From positions 1 through 62,433 of the forward strand of contig DASRSD010000098.1 in assembly GCA_035656635.1 (NCBI GenBank): a stretch of DNA of 62,433 nt. Direction: 5' to 3'. The notes under the pieces are model-generated. The model worked only from the letters and a program-made list of their open reading frames with translations, was not told where the DNA came from and did no database searches. The position numbers were made by a program, and so were the translations under genes. Position 1 is the stretch's first letter. Each line of letters begins with the position of its first letter. This document shows positions 25,278 to 37,301 of this stretch, piece after piece. Origin of the DNA: Pirellulales bacterium (GTDB taxonomy: Bacteria; Planctomycetota; Planctomycetia; Pirellulales; JADZDJ01).

Positions 25278-28187
25278 TCACTTCGAATGGTTGGGGCTGC
25301 GGTTCAATTCCAACCGCCCGCGCAGGCCGTGCTCCTCAAACGTCAGGCCGAAGTTCGCGCTTTGAAATTGGGCCAACGCGGCGCTCATGCTGGGCCTCTG
25401 CTTGGATTGCCCGGGATGCCCATACACCGTCGATTCCATGGTTTTCCACTCGTCGTTCCACACGTATTGTCCGCCGCCGGGGCAAATCAGCTGCGTGTGC
25501 CACAGCCGCTGGTGAACTTTCACCGGGTCTTCGCTAGGGAACAGCCGCTTCCATTCGTTCAAAATGGGAATGTTGCCCCAGGCCCGCATTTGCAGGGCCG
25601 AGTCGGTCAAGGAATCGAAGTCGAGCAACACGCCCACGCCGGAGTTATTCAAAACTTCAAACATCTTTCGGTCTACGTGAAAGCAAACGTTTTCGCCCAG
25701 CCATGGTAAATCGGCCAGGCTTGGATCTGCCGCTTTAGCATCCGGCGTTTTAGCATCTACTGCTTTCGTGCCGCCGCCTTTGTCATTGCTGCTTTTGGTC
25801 CCGGCCGCCTCGCGCGCCGCTTGGCGATCCAGCGCCTGCTTGAGCACCTCTTCGTTCAAACTCACAATCAAGCTGTCGCCGGTCGGCGCATAATACAGTG
25901 CAACATTAGCCGCTTCACCCAGGCTGTGGCGTCCCCGCTCCGTGGCTTTTACGCGCACATAGGGTTGATCTTTGTACGTCAGCGATTCCCACTGCGTCAT
26001 TCCCGGCGCCGTTTGCTCTATCACGGCTCGCACCCCCGTCAAAAATCCAGCCAGCTTGAGCGGGCTGGAAACTTCGGCTTGCAAGGCAATGGGCAACTGC
26101 GACCAACCACCATCGTCGAAAAAATTTTGCCGCTCCTCCGGCTGCATGTCGTGGAGTTTTTTCCAGACCGGGCTGTCATCCACGTACATTGCAACCGACG
26201 AGCCCAGCCAGCCCAGCAAATCGATGTGCGCTTGCGGCGAAAGTGCCGAGGCCATGTTGCTCCAGCCGCGCATCTGCTCCGATTTCGTGTTCAAGGCCAC
26301 AATCAAATGGGCCAAATCGGCATGCCGATCGCCGGCGTCAGGTTGAATTTTCGTCCCGCGCGAAATGTTGACAAAATCGCGATATTCGCTGCCAAACACG
26401 AGCGGCATCACCGTTAAATCGCCGGACAGCTTGCTGTCGGCCACGCCGATGCGCAGGGCAATCGGATCGAATTTCCACCGCCAATTGTTTTCGTAGCCTT
26501 GGCGCCATTGGTTGTAGCCGTCGGCTTCGCTGCGGCTGATTTTATCGACCGGCATTTCCACAATCGGCGTCATCCAGGCCAGCGTGCCATATATGGAAGA
26601 GTTGATCCCGGCACCGCTCAGCGTCAAATCGCCCACATCCGCCGGGGCAAAGTCTGGATGGATTTTGCTGGGCTGCGCGTTTTGGCTTTCCAATTCCGCT
26701 GCGTGTGTGGCGGTCAATTCGGCCAATAACGAGGCCACATAAATTCGCCGGGCCGAAGCAATGCGCCATTGCGGACTGCACCAGCGGCGAATCGTTGGAT
26801 CGCTGATGAACAAAAACGCGGTCTCGTCTTTGTCCCCCAGTGGGTAGCGCGTGCGGAAAAATTTGTACTCGTCGAGCGAGGAAATTGATTCCGATTTTTG
26901 TCCAACCTGTGCCAGCCGCTCCAACTGCTTCGGCGAGTTCGTCACTACCACGGCTCCGTTCAAGGCCGCAATGTACGAGCAAATCGCGCGGTCCGGCGAG
27001 CGAAAGAATTTGTAATTTACTCCGCTCATTTCGCCACTTTCCGGTAGAACCCCTGCGTGCTGGCCAGCATACGAGCCAATTTGCACTGCCAATGCGGTGG
27101 CCAGCGCATCGGGATGATCGGTTTCCAACAGAACTGCCACGTCGGTGCCGGTGGGAAAATACGGATCGGACCCCGTCAGCGCCACGCTCTTAACCGTCGC
27201 TTGACCAACCATGCGGCCCACGTCGCTCAGCGATAATCCCAACTGCTGCTCGTAGCGCTGCCGAATGCCGGCATCTTCGCTGTGCGGCCGGGCCATTTTC
27301 CACAAGAGCGTATCGTCGGCTGACGACTCATCAGCAAACTTCGTCGCCGCGGCAAACGACGGGAAAAATAGCACGTGCTGATCGGCCGGAATCAACTTCG
27401 CCAGCGGGTCGAGTTTCGGACTGGCATCTTTCAGCAGCGGCTTCCAATCGATTTTGTCGACCGTAATGCCCGTCAGCGTGCCGATGTCGATCGACCGATC
27501 TCCCACGTCGGGCGAGCTTTGCAACTGCCGATCTAATTGCAGGTTCTCGCTGATTGCCTGGCCGCCGGAAAACAAATCGTAAGCATCGGTCGGATCAGGC
27601 GGCACTACCCAACCGCTGGGAATGGCCGTGCCGTTGCCATGCCGCTGCGGATCGAGTTCCTCCAACTTTTGATCGGCAGTCTGAACTTGATGGCGAAACC
27701 ATGCGCCTCCCGGAAATCGCTGTTGCCCCAGTTCCACATAGTGATGTGCTTTAGCGAGGTAAAATCCTTCTTCAGCTAATTTTTTTGCTGCCGTGGCCGG
27801 CACGTCAAACTTCACCAAATTCATTCCGCTCATGTCGTCCGTGGGCAAACCCATGCGGCCGGCAACGTCGCGCTTCTCCGGCGCACGAATGAACAAATGG
27901 CCTTGCGAAAAATCGTTTTGCAAAGTTTGAAAGTTCCAAAACGATTGGTCAGGCACATCCAGGTATGCCTCCCCTTCGCCGTCGAGCGTGACGTCAGGAA
28001 CCATGGCATTCCAGCCCGCCTGAAAATGAAACTTTCTATTCGGCTTGGGCAATTCCCCCGACGTAATTTTCAAATCCGCCAGCGGAATATCAAAAAACGC
28101 ATCTTCGGCCGCCGCGCTGCGGACTAACAGAATTGCCACGGCCCACGCCGCCAGTGCCGCACCAAAAACATGTCTGGAAATACGCAT
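25278..28187 (-). CDS. Large exported protein of unknown function
   Basis: The 969-residue protein has a signal peptide (VFGAALAAWAVAILLVRSAAA, cleavage near residue 27) and no further membrane segment. I recognise no domain. Sequence features include repeated folded segments with 'LGLSLSDVGRMVGQ', 'DVAVLLETDHPDALATAL', 'AVVVTNSPKQLERLAQVG' and 'LIVSLNEEVLKQALDRQAA', which look like the repeated 'ALLVSN..AALE' elements of planctomycete DUF3352-like proteins, where a lipid- or ligand-binding fold recurs. A Lys/Asp/Ala-rich linker lies around residue 820. GAGGAA lies 8 bases before the ATG. It is monocistronic, convergent with the GH16 gene. Confidence 0.75.
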   Translation of the reverse strand: MRISRHVFGAALAAWAVAILLVRSAAAEDAFFDIPLADLKITSGELPKPNRKFHFQAGWNAMVPDVTLDGEGEAYLDVPDQSFWNFQTLQNDFSQGHLFIRAPEKRDVAGRMGLPTDDMSGMNLVKFDVPATAAKKLAEEGFYLAKAHHYVELGQQRFPGGAWFRHQVQTADQKLEELDPQRHGNGTAIPSGWVVPPDPTDAYDLFSGGQAISENLQLDRQLQSSPDVGDRSIDIGTLTGITVDKIDWKPLLKDASPKLDPLAKLIPADQHVLFFPSFAAATKFADESSADDTLLWKMARPHSEDAGIRQRYEQQLGLSLSDVGRMVGQATVKSVALTGSDPYFPTGTDVAVLLETDHPDALATALAVQIGSYAGQHAGVLPESGEMSGVNYKFFRSPDRAICSYIAALNGAVVVTNSPKQLERLAQVGQKSESISSLDEYKFFRTRYPLGDKDETAFLFISDPTIRRWCSPQWRIASARRIYVASLLAELTATHAAELESQNAQPSKIHPDFAPADVGDLTLSGAGINSSIYGTLAWMTPIVEMPVDKISRSEADGYNQWRQGYENNWRWKFDPIALRIGVADSKLSGDLTVMPLVFGSEYRDFVNISRGTKIQPDAGDRHADLAHLIVALNTKSEQMRGWSNMASALSPQAHIDLLGWLGSSVAMYVDDSPVWKKLHDMQPEERQNFFDDGGWSQLPIALQAEVSSPLKLAGFLTGVRAVIEQTAPGMTQWESLTYKDQPYVRVKATERGRHSLGEAANVALYYAPTGDSLIVSLNEEVLKQALDRQAAREAAGTKSSNDKGGGTKAVDAKTPDAKAADPSLADLPWLGENVCFHVDRKMFEVLNNSGVGVLLDFDSLTDSALQMRAWGNIPILNEWKRLFPSEDPVKVHQRLWHTQLICPGGGQYVWNDEWKTMESTVYGHPGQSKQRPSMSAALAQFQSANFGLTFEEHGLRGRLELNRSPNHSK

Positions 28188-28500
28188 TCGCCTGTTTCCT
28201 CACATTCAAAATGATTGACCGGCTCCCACCGTACCGTTCCCCACATCCTCTAGCCAAAATACCCCCGACGGCCACTGGCGGTTTCAAACAATCAATTACT
28301 GAAGTGCCAGCACTATAATGCCGACGGCCCATGCGGCCTAGCACAGAAAGACTTTTTAGTGCGCGCATGTTTCAATTCACGCTGGCGCGAATGTTGGGAA
28401 GCACAGCCTTAGCGGCCGCTCACCCCATCACCTCCTCACCTCATCAACTGCGCACACCTAACTTCATCCGTCATTCGGATTTCGTCATTCGACGTGGACC
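28188..28500. other. Intergenic region with word-like direct repeats
   Basis: This stretch contains the promoter side of the large exported gene. At its right end are short repeated words: CCTCACCTCATC-type words near 28424-28446 and CGTCATTCG twice (28469-28477, 28483-28491) separated by GATTT. No gene was recognised. Confidence 0.45.
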
Positions 28501-28668
28501 CTAACTGTGCCCGCTCCCTCCTTGGGCCCGCAGCTGCGACGTTTCCTGTTGGCTGATGTGCAATTTACGTCCCCGTTTGCGGGCATCATCGTCTGGCCGT
28601 TTTTCTTTGCCGTGATGGTCTTGCGATTTAGGCTTTCGATCTTGCATCTTTTGTGCTTGCATTCTCAT
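28501..28668 (-). CDS. Possible small basic protein
   Basis: A 55-codon frame with GAGG 7 bases before its ATG encodes a strongly charged product (KMQDRKPKSQDHHGKEKRPD, then DDDARKRGRKLHISQQE). It has no membrane segment and no recognised family; the composition suggests a disordered or nucleic-acid-binding peptide. Support is the ribosome site and the coherent charged composition only. Confidence 0.4.
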   Translation of the reverse strand: MRMQAQKMQDRKPKSQDHHGKEKRPDDDARKRGRKLHISQQETSQLRAQGGSGHS

Positions 28669-29009
28669 GGTAAAACCTCGTCTTCGGCTGATGTTTAGAG
28701 TTCGCCCCGCCAGTCACGGGTGCATGTTTCATGCCGCCAATGAGAGTTTTGGCCACTTTGAACATCAGGAGAGTTTGGGTCCCCTTGGCATTGCTTTGGG
28801 TGCCCGTGGCATAGCGCACGGGTGCAACTGCTGGCCGGGCACCCCATGCGACAATCTTGGCACGTAGAAACGCCTCCATGGAGAAGCGATCTTCGAGATC
28901 ACCCCTCGCAATTGTTCGCTGAAGGGAAGTACCGAGTGGCCCACTTTGGCCCTTACACCCGTTCCGCAGAGTGGGACAATGCGGGGGGGGACAAGTGGAG
29001 GGTGCATTT
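28669..29009. other. Intergenic region without recognised gene
   Basis: About 340 bases upstream of the secreted-protein gene. It holds GGGTGC/GGCAC-rich words (around 28718-28850) similar in style to the palindromic elements at 30221-30345, and the GGAGG ribosome site at its end. No coding signal was seen. Confidence 0.4.
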
Positions 29010-29678
29010 ATGTGTTTCAGAACGCTGTGCATTGCGTTTCTTGCGTGCATATCTTTAGCGGCATTTGGTGATCCGCCAAATCAGTCGAGTACGGTGACCA
29101 TCCCGCTCAAAGATATTTGGGCGTCGAATATGCCGGGCACAATCGACGTTCGTGATTTGGAGCCGGAAGCCTATGGCAGCGATGCAAAAAAATTGCCGCT
29201 CGAACAATATCAACAGGCGTATAAATCATCAAAGATAACACAAATCATTATCAGTTTGGAAAAACAGCCTTATGACCAAGTTGCTTCGGATGGTTTCGCA
29301 GTAGAGGGAACGGGCAAGACCGCACTAAATGCCGCTTGTGACGTGATAGTAGAACACAAAAAGCCACAAAAAATACTTGTGGGTCAAGATGTATCCATTG
29401 TGTTCTTCTCTCGTGAATTTAATTATTACATTCACATTACGGAAGTTACACAACAGCAAAACACGTTTCATATTCAATATCAATTTGTTCCACACGATAC
29501 CAAAGATACCACCGTGCATTTTGCTTTGATTCCTGTCGGTAAGCTGTCAGGTGGTGTTTATTCTGTCGAAATTGAGCCGACACAGCATTTGGAGCAAAAA
29601 CTCAGAGATTGGGAAAAGCGGATCGTGTGCAAGTCTTTCTCTTTCACCGTGGCGAACGATACGAAGAAAAAGGAGTAA
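29010..29678 (+). CDS. Secreted protein of unknown function, coupled to a truncated subtilase
   Basis: The 222-residue product starts with a signal peptide (MCFRTLCIAFLACISLAAFG). I place the start at 29010 because GGAGGG sits about 8 bases upstream; an in-frame ATG 13 codons earlier has no such site. The mature protein is mixed alpha/beta with no recognised domain (SKITQIIISLEKQPYDQVAS, FHIQYQFVPHDTKDTTVHFA) and ends in KKKE. Its stop lies 3 bases before the ATG of a truncated subtilase gene, the same spacing and a nearly identical junction as between the WD40 gene and the full-length subtilase on the other strand. The base composition is more AT-rich than that of the neighbouring core genes. 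Confidence 0.7.
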   Translation: MCFRTLCIAFLACISLAAFGDPPNQSSTVTIPLKDIWASNMPGTIDVRDLEPEAYGSDAKKLPLEQYQQAYKSSKITQIIISLEKQPYDQVASDGFAVEGTGKTALNAACDVIVEHKKPQKILVGQDVSIVFFSREFNYYIHITEVTQQQNTFHIQYQFVPHDTKDTTVHFALIPVGKLSGGVYSVEIEPTQHLEQKLRDWEKRIVCKSFSFTVANDTKKKE

Positions 29679-29681
29679 ACC

Positions 29682-30194
29682 ATGAGTTATCGTGGCATAA
29701 GAATTTCTTTGGTTGCCGGAATTCTACTCACCGCACAATGGACATTTGCGAGTGTCGATACAAACGGTCCAGATGGAATCAGTTCGACCGGGCTAACCGG
29801 CTTCAATACCAATCAACCACTGACCGGCAGCGGTATAAAAATTGGCCAAGTTGAAGTGGCACGGCCAGCAGTTCCAAATTTTGATTCCAATGCGTCGTCG
29901 AGTATCAAGCCTACAGCAGTTTTCGTCCAAACGGGTCCGCCTACGGCAAATGCAACTCCACCTGAGGACGATGAACATGCAGAAGAAGTTGCGGGCATTA
30001 TGATTTCCCAAGACCCGTTAATTCCTGGCGTTGCACAGAATGCACTGTTGTATTCCTCTGCATTCGTTGATGACTCACAAGCTCAGGCGGCAGAGCAGGT
30101 AGAGTTGGTAACAATGCAACAAATTGCATCGCAGCCAAATATGACGGCGGTCAACAACAGTTGGGGACAATCTTTATCATCCATATTTATTTGA
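29682..30194 (+). pseudogene. Truncated paralogue of the S8 subtilase
   Basis: The 170 codons encode a signal peptide and the first part of a subtilase-like domain. It is collinear with the full-length protein at 30554-32548: TNGPDGISSTGLTGFN against TIGPHGINSQGLLDFN, SGIKIGQVEVARP against DGISIGEVEVQRP, the His region EHAEEVAGIMISQDP against FHAEWVASVMVSQDP, and AVNNSWGQ against AVNHSWGQ. Just after WGQ the similarity stops and a TGA follows within eight codons. The Ser region, beta-rich C-terminus, dockerin and sorting signal are absent. Palindromic repeats begin about 50 bases further on. It could be a decaying duplicate, or a stable short product. Confidence 0.8.
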
Positions 30195-30220
30195 AGTTCA
30201 CGAACCCGAATTAGCGCGCG

Positions 30221-30345
30221 GGTGCCACTGGCTCCGCACGAATTCCACTGGTCTGCCAGTGTTCGAGTGCCACTGGCTCTGCCAGTGTTGCCTGCCTGCA
30301 CGACAAAACACTGGCCAAGCCGGTGCCACCCAGTCCGGCTACGCA
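30221..30345. repeat. Cluster of CACTGGC..GCCAGTG palindromes
   Basis: CACTGGTCTGCCAGTG (30246-30261) and CACTGGCTCTGCCAGTG (30271-30287) are near-perfect and perfect palindromes. GGTGCCACTGGC (30221-30232) and CACTGGCCAAGCCGGTGCCACC (around 30307-30330) are further half copies. The cluster begins just after the truncated subtilase and ends before the small membrane-protein frame. Confidence 0.8.
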
Positions 30346-30362
30346 GAGGTTACAATGCGTGA

Positions 30363-30557
30363 ATGAATAACACGCTCTTTAGATTGATTTGCGGTGCGCT
30401 AGCCGCGTACTTCTTGTGGACACTGCTATATGTTCAGCACGGATGGCTCGCAACAGCTTGCCTGTGTTTTCTGATTGGCCTGTTCGCAACCTTCTCAATG
30501 CTCGGTAAACCGTCCACCACCCGTATTCGCACTTTCTTCCAGGCTTACAAGCTTTAG
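30363..30557 (+). CDS. Possible two-helix small membrane protein
   Basis: The 64-codon frame encodes two hydrophobic segments (LFRLICGALAAYFLWTLLYV and LATACLCFLIGLFATFSML) and a basic tail. Membrane character makes a real product plausible, but the ribosome site is weak (AGAGG 13 bases upstream) and no family was recognised. Its end overlaps the convergent subtilase stop by 4 bases. Confidence 0.4.
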   Translation: MNNTLFRLICGALAAYFLWTLLYVQHGWLATACLCFLIGLFATFSMLGKPSTTRIRTFFQAYKL

Positions 30558-32548
30558 CCGATCAATTTCCACTTGAGTCCGAGGCACGAAGAGCCGCCAA
30601 GTCGTTTCCGGAGTAACGCCAGTGCGCCGATAGCCAATAGCATGAGCGATGTTGGCTCAGGCACTGCATTCGTCGAACCATTGCCTGCCAAGAGGAAGTT
30701 AATCAAGGCTTGAATATCGAGATTGTTGAATTTGCCGTCGCCGTTCACATCGCCCAGAAGCGATAGGTAGTCGGTAGCAATACCGATTGAACTTGCGTAC
30801 CCAGTCTCGTTGGTTAACGCCTTCTCCATTGCGACGATATCCGCCGAATCCACGTGCCCGTCTTGGTTAATGTCGCCAGCGCCGGAAGTCAATGCTCCAA
30901 CTCCGTCGGCCCACCAAGCGACGGCATAGTTTTCCGCACCAGTGGTGGTATTAAACGGGTCCACCCAAAATTCATACTCGCCGGTCGTAGGAATTTGAAA
31001 AAAGATATGATCGACCGTGCCCGTGTCACTGATTGATTCAGCAATGGCTTGATTGATATTGGCAGAGTTCTTTGGCAGCAGATACAAATCCAGATCGGTA
31101 TATTGATCATATCCTGGATTACCGAATGGATTCGATGATGGTTCGAATATATCGCCTCGATTGTAGACTCCATCAGCCCCAGCCTTTGTAACCGTGCGAT
31201 CAAATGTCAACGTGATTGAAATAAAACTTCCGGCAGGCAACTGCTGATTCAATCGGTAAATCGACGGAAAATTAGATCCTCGGGCATCACTTCGTCCATA
31301 ATCCCAACCAATCACCGGAACCTCCGTATATGTGTTCGATACTTGAAAAGAATGATATTCTCCGGCTGCGAATTGCTTGAGTGCTCTTTTAGCGTCTAAC
31401 TCGCCTGTTCCCATTTGCTGGTCGAGTGCTACAAGCCCCAAGCCAGTGTTAACGTCATCATCGTATGCCGGTGAATCAAACCACGTCGAAGTGCCGTCCT
31501 GCATCACGACAGTTCGATCCATGCCGAGCAGACCATTTGCTGGAATTGGTAATAGTCCAGCATGTGTATATCCGACGTTATCCTGTATCTTGTCCGCAGA
31601 GTTCATCAATACAGCCTTCATTACCTGGTGGTGCGAATAATCACTGCTCCAATTTGGCGCTACTTTATTTAATCGTTGCTGGCCGTACTGATCCAAAAGA
31701 GCCGCCGTCGCAGTGACCATTGGTGCAGCGTAGCTGGTTCCGCTCCGAACAGGGATTGTCATACTTCCGTTAAAATCTGTTAACTGGATACCGTCACCAG
31801 GCGCGATTAGGTCGATGACAGTGCGGCCTCCGATAGGTTCTTGGTCGTAGGTATTTAAGTTGGCAACCTTCCGGTAAACCAATCCGTTGCCATTCAACAA
31901 GATCGTCGAAGCTCCAACATCGATTCCGTTAAAGGAGTCATCTGGTATCGGAATCCCTTTTCCTTCGTCCCCTCCTGAAACCTGCAACACGTCATAATTA
32001 CTGGCAATCCAATCATAGCCAAGCGATATTTGCGAATTCCCATCAATGATTGCACCGGGCCTCGCAAACTGACCCCAGCTATGGTTGACGGCCCGCATTC
32101 CGGTCTGTGAAGCAACCTTTTGAATCGATAGAAGTATGTCGGCGTCACTTGTGCTATTGTTATTAGTGTTCTCGTAAGCGGAGGCAAAAAGTGAGGCCTG
32201 CGTTGCCACCCCTGTTGTCACGGGGTCTTGTGAAACCATTACACTTGCCACCCATTCGGCATGAAAAAAAACATCTGTATCAGGTGGAGCAACGTTTTCA
32301 ATCGCAAATACGGCGGCTACTTTTACATTGAAATTTGAATTCGAGTCCGAATCATAGTTTGGTTTACCTGGTCGCTGAACTTCCACCTCACCAATCGAAA
32401 TGCCATCTCCGGTAAGCGGCTGCCCATTAAAATCCAAAAGGCCCTGTGAGTTTATGCCATGCGGGCCTATAGTATCCTGACTGGCATCTGCTAACGAGTG
32501 AGGAATAAGAAAACAAAGCACCACAATAAGTGATCGACAGCGTTTCAT
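30554..32548 (-). CDS. Exported S8 subtilase-like protein with dockerin and PEP-CTERM
   Basis: The 664-residue protein has a signal peptide ([17 protein letters not shown]), an S8 domain (about 40-370), a beta-rich domain (about 390-560), paired dockerin-like calcium loops (GDINQDGHVDSADI, GDVNGDGKFNNLDI) and a PEP-CTERM signal (VPEPTSLMLLAIGALALL, RKR). The Ser motif RSGTSYAAPMV (Ser272) and the His motif (His96 in FHAEWVAS) are kept. The usual Asp position reads Glu54 (ISIGEVEV against subtilisin's VAVIDSG) and the oxyanion Asn reads Asp194 (GGDEG against GNEG). It may be a variant or weakened protease. A 15-residue tail follows the RKR cluster, unusual for PEP-CTERM. It follows the WD40 gene by 3 bases with AAGGAG as ribosome site. 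Confidence 0.88.
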   Translation of the reverse strand: MKRCRSLIVVLCFLIPHSLADASQDTIGPHGINSQGLLDFNGQPLTGDGISIGEVEVQRPGKPNYDSDSNSNFNVKVAAVFAIENVAPPDTDVFFHAEWVASVMVSQDPVTTGVATQASLFASAYENTNNNSTSDADILLSIQKVASQTGMRAVNHSWGQFARPGAIIDGNSQISLGYDWIASNYDVLQVSGGDEGKGIPIPDDSFNGIDVGASTILLNGNGLVYRKVANLNTYDQEPIGGRTVIDLIAPGDGIQLTDFNGSMTIPVRSGTSYAAPMVTATAALLDQYGQQRLNKVAPNWSSDYSHHQVMKAVLMNSADKIQDNVGYTHAGLLPIPANGLLGMDRTVVMQDGTSTWFDSPAYDDDVNTGLGLVALDQQMGTGELDAKRALKQFAAGEYHSFQVSNTYTEVPVIGWDYGRSDARGSNFPSIYRLNQQLPAGSFISITLTFDRTVTKAGADGVYNRGDIFEPSSNPFGNPGYDQYTDLDLYLLPKNSANINQAIAESISDTGTVDHIFFQIPTTGEYEFWVDPFNTTTGAENYAVAWWADGVGALTSGAGDINQDGHVDSADIVAMEKALTNETGYASSIGIATDYLSLLGDVNGDGKFNNLDIQALINFLLAGNGSTNAVPEPTSLMLLAIGALALLRKRLGGSSCLGLKWKLIG

Positions 32549-32551
32549 CGT

Positions 32552-33574
32552 TTACTCCTTTTTATTCGGCTTAACGGCGTCAGACTCTGGCCTCCAAATC
32601 AAAACAAGTTTATCTCTTCCCGCTGAGGCCAACTTCTTACCGTCCTTGGAGTACGACAAGTAATTAACTTGGTCGCCATGACCTTCGAGCAACCCATGGA
32701 GTTGCCCGCTCACGTCCCACAATTTAATGGACGGTTCCGTACCACCGGTTGCGATGGTTTTTCCGTCGGGATTGAACGCAACGCAAAAAACAGCTTTTTT
32801 GTCAGCCTGAATTTGTTGCACCATTTTTTGAGCTTTCACGTCCCAAATTTCAAACATTCCTGCATTCTCACCTCCAATAGCGAGGAGTTTATTATCAGGC
32901 GAAAAGGCTAAGCTTCGTGCAGGGCCCAGATAAGGCCACGCCGTAAATAGCTCAGTGCCACTTGGGAGCTGCCAGACATGAACCCTTGGAATTTTGGAGT
33001 ACGGCCATTCAGCAATTCCTTGAAGGCCGCCTGCGAGCATCGTTCCATCGGGTGAGATTGCCACCGTTAAGGACCTAGCAATATCTCGTTTATCAACAGG
33101 GAAAACTTGCAACTGTTTGCGTCTTTGCAAATTCCACACAGTAATCTGTGATTGCTCTGCGATTGCAAGATCTAAACCATCAGAAGAAAACGCTAAACCA
33201 TTCACGCCATCGGCAGGGCAGGCTTCTTGTTGCTGCTCGCCTGTGATTGGATTCCAGAAAGTAACAGGTTTTAGACGTGCCGTGGCAGCAATTAAATTAC
33301 CTTCCGGTGAAAACAAAACGGTAACTGGGCCTCCTAACTTGTCGCCTGTATTGTAGATTGCAAGGCGCCTGAGTTCCTTTCCGTTCAAAGCATCCCAGAT
33401 TCGTGCAGTGCCATCGTCGCTGCCAGATACAACTAACTTCCCGTCAGGGGAAAGCGAAACCGAGGTTACGAATCGTGTGTGGCCGACGCATTGAAGAGGT
33501 TGCCCTAAAGCAGACAGATAAACCAGCGTGACCCCACAGGCGAAAATGAAAATACGCAGCGTTCTGAAAAGCAT
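32552..33574 (-). CDS. Secreted WD40 beta-propeller protein
   Basis: The 340-residue protein has an N-terminal hydrophobic export segment (IFIFACGVTLVYLSALG) and about seven WD40-type repeats, e.g. GHTRFVTSVSLSPDGKLVVSGSDDGTARIWD, GHGDQVNYLSYSKDGKKLASAGRDKLVLIW. It has no kinase or other fused domain. WD40 propellers bind partners; an exported one read together with a subtilase 3 bases downstream suggests that it binds or targets the protease or its substrate. AAAGGAGA lies 7 bases before the ATG. The last residues KPNKKE and the downstream junction resemble those of the secreted-protein gene at 29010. Confidence 0.9.
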   Translation of the reverse strand: MLFRTLRIFIFACGVTLVYLSALGQPLQCVGHTRFVTSVSLSPDGKLVVSGSDDGTARIWDALNGKELRRLAIYNTGDKLGGPVTVLFSPEGNLIAATARLKPVTFWNPITGEQQQEACPADGVNGLAFSSDGLDLAIAEQSQITVWNLQRRKQLQVFPVDKRDIARSLTVAISPDGTMLAGGLQGIAEWPYSKIPRVHVWQLPSGTELFTAWPYLGPARSLAFSPDNKLLAIGGENAGMFEIWDVKAQKMVQQIQADKKAVFCVAFNPDGKTIATGGTEPSIKLWDVSGQLHGLLEGHGDQVNYLSYSKDGKKLASAGRDKLVLIWRPESDAVKPNKKE

Positions 33575-36233: not shown

Positions 36234-37301
36234 TTATCGGGCCGCTGACTTCGGCCGACTGGCCTGGTTCAAATCAGCGGGGTTTCCCGCCGGCATTTGC
36301 GTGGCGGCCGGCGGGGGCATGAGATCGGATTCCATTACATGCTTCGAGCCGAACGGGTTGGGCCGGGCAAAATCGTCGAACAGGTTTTGCAGCGGCGCCC
36401 AAGGATTGTTGATGGATGGATTATCAAGCTGGAGGACGGTGCGCGAGAGATTTTGAGCATTGGCGCCGGGATTGAAAATTTGAACGGCCGCCGGTTGCAA
36501 ATCGGCTTTATTCAGAATGATGGTAACTCGGGAGAAATTGGCGGCATCTTTTTGCATTTTTGGAAACGCCTCCAGCCAAACCTGGGTTTTCGCCTCCGAC
36601 GGCGGAGTAATCAATCGCATGTAGTAGCGTTTTTTCAAGGAGTCGGCCCGAGCGCCGAAGACGAACGGCAGCGGACCTTCGGTAATGGCTTTGCCCTGCA
36701 TTTCCGGTGGGAGTGGCTTTTCCACGACGAGCGTTTGCTTGTCGCGCACCGTGACTTCAAACATCGATTTGCCGTCGCAGGTCCACCATTCCGTCGGCTT
36801 CGCGTTTTGCTTAACTAGTTTTCCCGTTTTGGGATCGGGCACAAAATTCGTAAGTTCCTCAACTTTGAACATGCCTTTGTCGGGTGGAGCATATTTAAGC
36901 TCTCCGCTGCTGATAGCAGTAGGTTGGTTTGGATTGCCACCGGCAATCGTCGGGTCGTACTCCCAGCGGGTAAACGTACATTTGAAAGTCTTGATCTTGG
37001 TGTTTGCAGATTCCCAATCGGTGAGCAGTTGATTCAAATTACTTTCTTCCGTGGAACTCAGAACGAACGGCGGTGCAAGCGGCAACTGTTGGGGTTGTGC
37101 TGCCGCACCGTTGGACTGCGAGCCGGAATTTTCCGGAATGCCAGCGTTTGCAGGCATGCTGTTAGTGGCCGACGTTCCAGCGTTCATCGGTCTATTGGCA
37201 TTTGCCGCCAGCGGCGATGTTTGCGCTTTTGCTGGTAGCGTAGAGGCAGCCAAGCATGCAGCAATGATCAATGCGTTTTGGGTTCCGGCGCATAGTGTCA
37301 T
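36234..37301 (-). CDS. TIGR03009-type planctomycete exported protein
   Basis: The 355-residue protein has a signal peptide (ALIIAACLAASTLPAKA) and an Asn/Ala-rich disordered segment to about residue 75. The remaining part fits the planctomycete-specific TIGR03009 family: LNQLLTDWESANTKIKTFKCTFTRWEYDP, FKVEELT, EWWTCDGKSMFEVTVRDKQ, GPLPFVFGARADSLKKRYYMR. The layout resembles LolA-type lipid-carrier folds (outer-membrane lipoprotein-sorting-like), but this is inference. A LolC/LolD pair is 10 kb away. AAAGG lies 8 bases before the ATG. It is convergent with the acyl-CoA dehydrogenase, 5 bases between stops. Confidence 0.85.
   Translation of the reverse strand: MTLCAGTQNALIIAACLAASTLPAKAQTSPLAANANRPMNAGTSATNSMPANAGIPENSGSQSNGAAAQPQQLPLAPPFVLSSTEESNLNQLLTDWESANTKIKTFKCTFTRWEYDPTIAGGNPNQPTAISSGELKYAPPDKGMFKVEELTNFVPDPKTGKLVKQNAKPTEWWTCDGKSMFEVTVRDKQTLVVEKPLPPEMQGKAITEGPLPFVFGARADSLKKRYYMRLITPPSEAKTQVWLEAFPKMQKDAANFSRVTIILNKADLQPAAVQIFNPGANAQNLSRTVLQLDNPSINNPWAPLQNLFDDFARPNPFGSKHVMESDLMPPPAATQMPAGNPADLNQASRPKSAAR

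Follow-up and report, generated by a model that had tools for sequence, protein, structure and literature searches.

The subtilase gene at positions 30554 to 32548 (minus strand) of the window, the whole 62,433-nucleotide stretch of Pirellulales DNA analyzed here, encodes a protein of 664 amino acids (aa) in which, by alignment, Glu replaces the catalytic Asp at position 56. ORF reading and Pfam describe it as secreted and predicted to be anchored at the surface. It belongs to a new subclade of secreted subtilases with no visible propeptide and with a dockerin and PEP-CTERM tail. The pairing of this clade with an adjacent gene, which we call the partner gene, is also new. The acid position, the clade, its conservation, and the gene pairing were each established by computation. 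On balance, we favor an active surface subtilase with a Glu56-His96-Ser272 triad, for which the secreted product of the upstream partner gene would serve as an external chaperone and temporary inhibitor.

The catalytic acid and the oxyanion position

The window protease matches the S8 family model PF00082 (E=6.8e-15), as do all 24 of the clade members. The best Pfam stretch covers the protein from residue 92 onward and therefore leaves the acid strand unplaced. The original prediction had put Glu54 (within GISIGEVEV, which starts at residue 49), His96, Asp194, and Ser272 in this minus-strand ORF, and all four are found there. It took Glu54 (32387 to 32389), which stands at a signature position of the clade, for the counterpart of the catalytic Asp. 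However, the alignments choose Glu56 (32381 to 32383), two residues downstream. In a MAFFT alignment with 10 ordinary subtilases, the Asp of GVIVGIVDSG falls on Glu56 of the window GEVE, and a second, broader MAFFT set gave the same pairing. When the 24 clade members were aligned with eight ordinary PEP-CTERM subtilases by hhalign, Glu56 occupied the Asp column (probability 100, E=6.2e-64). The consensus of the acid strand across the clade is G-Q-V-E, and clade member L085 has GQVD, with Asp exactly at position 56.

The expected Ser-His-Glu arrangement is therefore supported, with Glu56 as its Glu, His96 in HAEWVAS (32261 to 32263), and Ser272 in GTSYAAP (31733 to 31735). The classical Asp-His-Ser triad of S8 is absent from the window protein. 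It has Glu at the position of the catalytic Asp and keeps the His and Ser, which is the E-H-S arrangement. On the strength of its sequence, we file it as an E-H-S variant of S8 and not as a classical D-H-S subtilase.

It is very improbable that Asp66, in the NYDSDSN motif, is the real triad acid and that the Glu strand is displaced. Asp66 is present in 23 of 24 clade members, and in a local HMM alignment to SubHal the Glu strand falls at a gap and Asp66 comes to lie near the Asp loop. However, hhalign pairs the catalytic Asp with Glu56 and not with Asp66, and in six of the eight ordinary relatives the catalytic Asp coexists with a later Asp, in an AGxDS-like counterpart of Asp66. Asp66 therefore appears to be the ordinary second Asp and not a displaced acid. 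An Asp of NYDSDSN at the triad position had been named beforehand as a result that would speak against the prediction, and by sequence this placement fails. Glu54 is even less credible as the triad acid, for although it is acidic and on the correct strand, position 54 holds Gln (in 19 of 24 members) or else Met, Leu, or Val in all 23 members other than the window protein, and both MAFFT sets and hhalign set position 56, not 54, on the Asp. Because Gln is usual at position 54, the Gln of the truncated paralogue described below is the normal state.

Position 56 is Glu in 22 of the 24 aligned members, Asp in one, and Asn in one, and His96 and Ser272 are each kept in 23. These three residues are within the 63 most conserved of 524 alignment columns. 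Asp194 (GGDEG; 31967 to 31969), to which an oxyanion role had been ascribed, does align with the oxyanion Asn, but the position varies within the clade. It is Asn in nine members, Asp in four, Gly in three, Pro in two, and Val, Thr, Arg, Lys, Phe, or Ala in one each, and 324 of the 524 columns are conserved at least as strongly. A family search thus answers in the negative the earlier question of whether homologues conserve Glu54 together with Asp194. Asn in only nine members is unfavorable for ordinary catalysis and counts against our preferred explanation. Position 195 is Glu in 11 members, Gln in seven, Asn in three, and Phe, Asp, or Tyr in one each. None of the Asp, His, Asn, and Ser positions varies among the eight ordinary relatives. 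Member L065, which stands without a partner gene, has lost both the His (to Thr) and the Ser (to Ile).

The residue after the catalytic His also differs. It is Gly in none of 30 Glu-aligned rows versus 22 of 25 Asp-aligned rows of the D group, the rows being related and not independent. A planctomycete control covered 30 S8 loci: the 26 with a recognized His motif all have Gly after the His, and the 21 with a plausible acid motif all have Asp.

Domain layout and the protease clade

The protease begins with a signal peptide (aa 1 to 22; 32483 to 32548), as judged by eye. A C-terminal domain (aa 400 to 545; 30914 to 31351) can be aligned from end to end with ordinary PEP-CTERM subtilases, and it has a weak alignment to the C-terminal part of KP-43 (1wmd). 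It is followed by a type I dockerin region (aa 557 to 620; 30689 to 30880; PF00404, E=4.4e-11) and a PEP-CTERM sorting signal (aa 628 to 649; 30602 to 30667; PF07589, E=2.5e-05, above the cut-off). This C-terminal signal makes the window protease a member of the PEP-CTERM proteins, and by its sequence the tail would anchor the protease to the surface. In its own genome, a 4.9-Mb assembly of 190 contigs, the full-length query had 69 matches, nearly all through the dockerin and PEP-CTERM tail.

Glu56 lies only about 34 residues past the end of the signal peptide, and with signal peptides set by eye the distance is similar in most members. The acid of mature subtilisin is at about the same distance from its N terminus. 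Therefore, no propeptide of the usual length is visible. The ordinary PEP-CTERM subtilase L001 has no obvious propeptide either, by eye, so a missing propeptide alone demands no helper. An AlphaFold2 model of aa 22 to 545, built from four alignment rows, had confidence values too low to interpret (pLDDT 31, pTM 0.24).

Three bases upstream of the intact protease is a WD40-repeat gene (32552 to 33574, minus strand; family by Pfam, signal peptide by eye), which occupies the slot held by the partner gene in other clade members. Elsewhere in the window, a 969-aa ORF (25278 to 28187, minus strand) looks secreted and has no Pfam family at E≤0.1, and the segment from 36234 to 37301 (minus strand) matches the planctomycete family TIGR03009 under its cut-off (71.6 of 90.5 bits).

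A class-wide search yielded full-length relatives of the protease, and an order-wide profile search yielded many more. In the latter, 119 of 396 genomes gave at least one match at E≤0.001. Many weak matches at this cut-off came from other subtilases or from short fragments. Viral contigs, scanned three times, yielded no relative. A scan of genome contigs found none with a single protein as the query and two with an alignment as the query.

In a quick maximum-likelihood tree of 60 rows, 22 GQVE members fall on a single branch (SH-aLRT 99), so the distinct clade suggested by the original prediction is upheld; L074 joins at 90. Together with all other Glu-type planctomycete subtilases of the set, the GQVE clade makes up a 37-row group (95) that includes three Asp-group rows, and the tree requires four Glu/Asp changes. 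Six loci whose Ser motif was not picked up by the script (L124, L128, L116, L117, L123, and L131) were left out. L045, L097, and L121 are among the long branches and are misaligned at or near the acid in the broader MAFFT set, so a single origin of Glu is no more than likely.

Other variants were seen along the way. In the genome of the window, L002:811-2745 (plus strand) and L097:1039-3642 (minus strand) have Glu at the acid strand (NIEAG and VIEAG), with HAT or HAS and GTSFAAP, and L001 has the sole classical VDSG among the S8 loci read there. In the planctomycete subtilases L117, L120, L123, and L131, Ser stands at the acid position (LLSNG, MLSSG, VLSQM) and the His and Ser motifs are present; this group possibly uses another acid position or consists of pseudoproteases. 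L004:422-3082 (plus strand), also from the genome of the window, was caught by the S8 model and is sedolisin-like by eye (GGTSVGAP, no His motif).

The partner gene and its pairing with the clade

In the window, the partner gene (28971 to 29678, plus strand) is a 235-codon ORF for a small secreted protein, with a signal peptide by eye and ATG 29010 as a possible start. It adjoins, on the upstream side, the truncated paralogue of the protease (29682 to 30194, plus strand). By ORF reading, this 170-aa paralogue has GQVE, which confirms the predicted Gln at the position of Glu54, keeps the His, and ends before the Ser region. No continuation of it was found in 28500 to 30700 on either strand. The window partner thus precedes the truncated paralogue and not the intact protease, which is about 0.9 kb away. 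The WD40 gene and the intact protease follow one another on one strand, tail to tail with the partner-paralogue pair.

Elsewhere, partner relatives lie upstream of Glu-subtilases, with frames that overlap or are separated by up to about 130 bases. We counted 39 candidate protease N termini and removed L114 and L115, in which the pattern match lay outside the acid strand. Of the remaining 37, 31 have the partner as their immediate upstream neighbor in the same orientation. The six without an adjoining partner are the intact window protease, L146, L092, L074, L065, and L072. Five of the 31 pairs (L133, L134, L137, L138, and L144) were located via the partner, so this figure is inflated; counted from the protease first, it is 26 of 32. 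At cut-offs of E<1e-10 for the partner and E<1e-60 for the protease, both genes are present in 18 of the 396 genomes searched in the order, one has only the protease (G199), two have only the partner (G287 and G370), and 375 have neither. G295, G280, and G206 have weaker protease matches and no partner.

The partner also occurs in other arrangements. L135, L140, L141, and L142 have a partner and no protease in the downstream sequence examined. In L141 (2830 to 4351, minus strand) there are two tandem genes of this kind, which are possible orphans, and tandem partners are also found in L058, L067, L095, and L059. In L066 (625 to 2862, minus strand), a partner domain is fused onto the C-terminal end of the protease. 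A conserved SFxFxV strand lies close to the C termini of the partners.

Pfam assigned no family to the window copy of the partner, and any one family to at most one of 32 members (best E, 0.046). We had suspected that it might be PrcB of the dentilisin complex or belong to another known family, and this has no Pfam support. The best PDB match, MRE11 (E=0.0021), was treated as chance, as its best stretch reached an E of only 2.6. A structure prediction of the partner alone was too low in confidence to interpret (pLDDT 37.5).

In 10 of the 31 partner-linked proteases, the frame ends before the Ser region through a frameshift, a stop, an IS element, or truncation. These are L133, L106, L102, L095, L138, L069, the window paralogue, L091, L052 (IS element), and L059. 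L137, L144, and L145 lie at contig ends, where their state is not readable, and L085 and L134 break after the Ser region. Assembly errors may account for some breaks, but probably not for the IS element or the truncation in the window. Proteases of the clade often have a frame split in two, as in L038/L047, L133, L138, L095, L069, L071, and L091, and the site of the split varies between the His region and the Ser region. We rejected programmed frameshifting for the split proteases: the breaks fall at varying model positions and shift the frame either way, or are simple stop codons, which makes decay or assembly error likelier. The 10 broken frames, together with L065, suggest that the protease gene is often dispensable. 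They count against our preferred explanation, as do the six proteases with no partner beside them and the four partner loci with no protease downstream.

Proposed function and comparison with known systems

We suggest that the protease is exported by its signal peptide, folds without the usual N-terminal propeptide, and is retained at the surface by its PEP-CTERM (exosortase) tail. Glu56 would do the usual work of Asp in a triad with His96 and Ser272. The window protease would most likely still hydrolyze peptide bonds, perhaps at a low rate or on a narrow range of substrates, since the clade tolerates change at the oxyanion Asn. In most relatives, the product of the gene directly upstream would be a dedicated secreted helper, and the pairing of this helper with an apparently propeptide-less protease suggests a division of labor as in Aeromonas ASP and ORF2. 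We therefore model the partner on ORF2, as an external chaperone and temporary inhibitor, and its SFxFxV strand might plug the active site in the manner of the ORF2 C terminus. In the window, the helper could act on the intact protease in trans, or it could be a relic. More tentatively, the clade may be a planctomycete module of independent origin from ASP and ORF2, in which propeptide-less E-H-S subtilases need a new partner family, encoded upstream, in order to fold and to stay silent. The oxyanion Asn would then be dispensable, perhaps because the site is shaped by the partner or by the Glu or Gln common at position 195.

The partner could instead be an immunity-like inhibitor or a substrate, which restrains the surface protease or is processed by it; we consider such a role possible, if doubtful. 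Partner and protease both look secreted, orphan and tandem partner genes occur, and the partners stop shortly past the SFxFxV strand. The partner frame is also open beside all 10 broken proteases (two of these frames are cut by contig ends). We did not accept decay of the protease with the partner kept as proof of immunity, because the partner is the shorter target and the partner in L083 is split. That split partner stands beside an intact protease, intact proteases without a partner exist, including that of the window, and Pfam recognized no inhibitor family in the partner, all of which argue against such a role.

An active enzyme is also our preferred reading over a pseudoprotease or binding scaffold, in which the subtilase fold would be retained to bind and cleavage would have been lost with the changes at the acid and oxyanion positions. 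The oxyanion Asn is absent in 15 of 24 members, the window protein has the unusual pair Glu54 and Asp194, and the clade includes many broken copies as well as L065, without either His or Ser. However, the retention of Glu56, His96, and Ser272 in nearly all members would be unexpected were binding alone important, and the E-H-S enzyme SprP is active, according to the available part of its report (PMC3937732). We therefore regard the scaffold as unlikely and disfavor the earlier proposal of a protein that binds rather than cleaves, even though L065 would fit it.

The original prediction called the arrangement unusual for S8. This is true, but the arrangement already has the name E-H-S, which the available text of PMC3937732 assigns to SprP (PA1242) of Pseudomonas aeruginosa. 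As described there, SprP is a demonstrated protease: it degrades skim milk and Suc-AAPF-pNA, and its S499A mutant has no activity. It shares with the window protease the Glu in place of the catalytic Asp and the kept His and Ser. It differs in its N-terminal DUF domain, and PEP-CTERM goes unmentioned in that part of the report; the two are set apart here by description, not by sequence (PMC3937732). Features that mark the planctomycete clade, compared with SprP, are its GQVE signature, a variable oxyanion position, and a partner gene upstream.

Glu-His-Ser as a catalytic arrangement is on record and not new, so the swap of Glu for Asp is in itself no surprise. The available parts of the literature on planctomycete or PEP-CTERM subtilases and on Glu-His-Ser subtilisins contained no account of this clade. 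Siezen, Renckens, and Boekhorst reportedly described, in 2007, a subset of subtilases with Asp replaced by Glu. As a natural series in which Glu is fixed and the oxyanion Asn varies freely, the clade would allow the share of each in catalysis to be tested.

The ordinary planctomycete PEP-CTERM subtilases (L001, L051, L078, L080, and L100) align with the window protease in both the catalytic and C-terminal domains and share its PEP-CTERM tail. However, these ordinary enzymes have an Asp acid (8 of 8), an oxyanion Asn (8 of 8), and an HGT motif. Among solved structures, KP-43 and SubHal (1wmd and 5fax) are the best matches to the catalytic part and, weakly, to the C-terminal part, but they have an Asp acid and low identity. 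We know of no partner for either. Sedolisins (S53) have Asp at the oxyanion position and Glu in the triad. They use this Glu instead of His, whereas the clade keeps His96 in 23 of 24 members; with His96 present, the window protease does not have the sedolisin Ser-Glu-Asp triad.

The closest likeness in gene arrangement is Aeromonas sobria ASP. According to the available part of the report, ASP has no propeptide and requires the product of the neighboring gene, ORF2, as chaperone and temporary inhibitor, and the ORF2 C terminus is located at the ASP active site (PMC5638518). In both systems a subtilase without a propeptide, apparently so in our clade, has an adjoining dedicated helper gene, the helper here being a putative one. 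Unlike the window protease, ASP has an Asp-His-Ser triad (D78, H115, and S336), is grouped with the kexins, and has ORF2 downstream. In our clade, the partner is a conserved neighbor in 31 of 37 members, but it lies upstream and is not beside the intact window protease. The partner is likened to ORF2 by gene arrangement, not by sequence. This new secreted family, which accompanies a single protease clade, may be another case, independent of ORF2, of an external chaperone or inhibitor for a propeptide-less subtilase.
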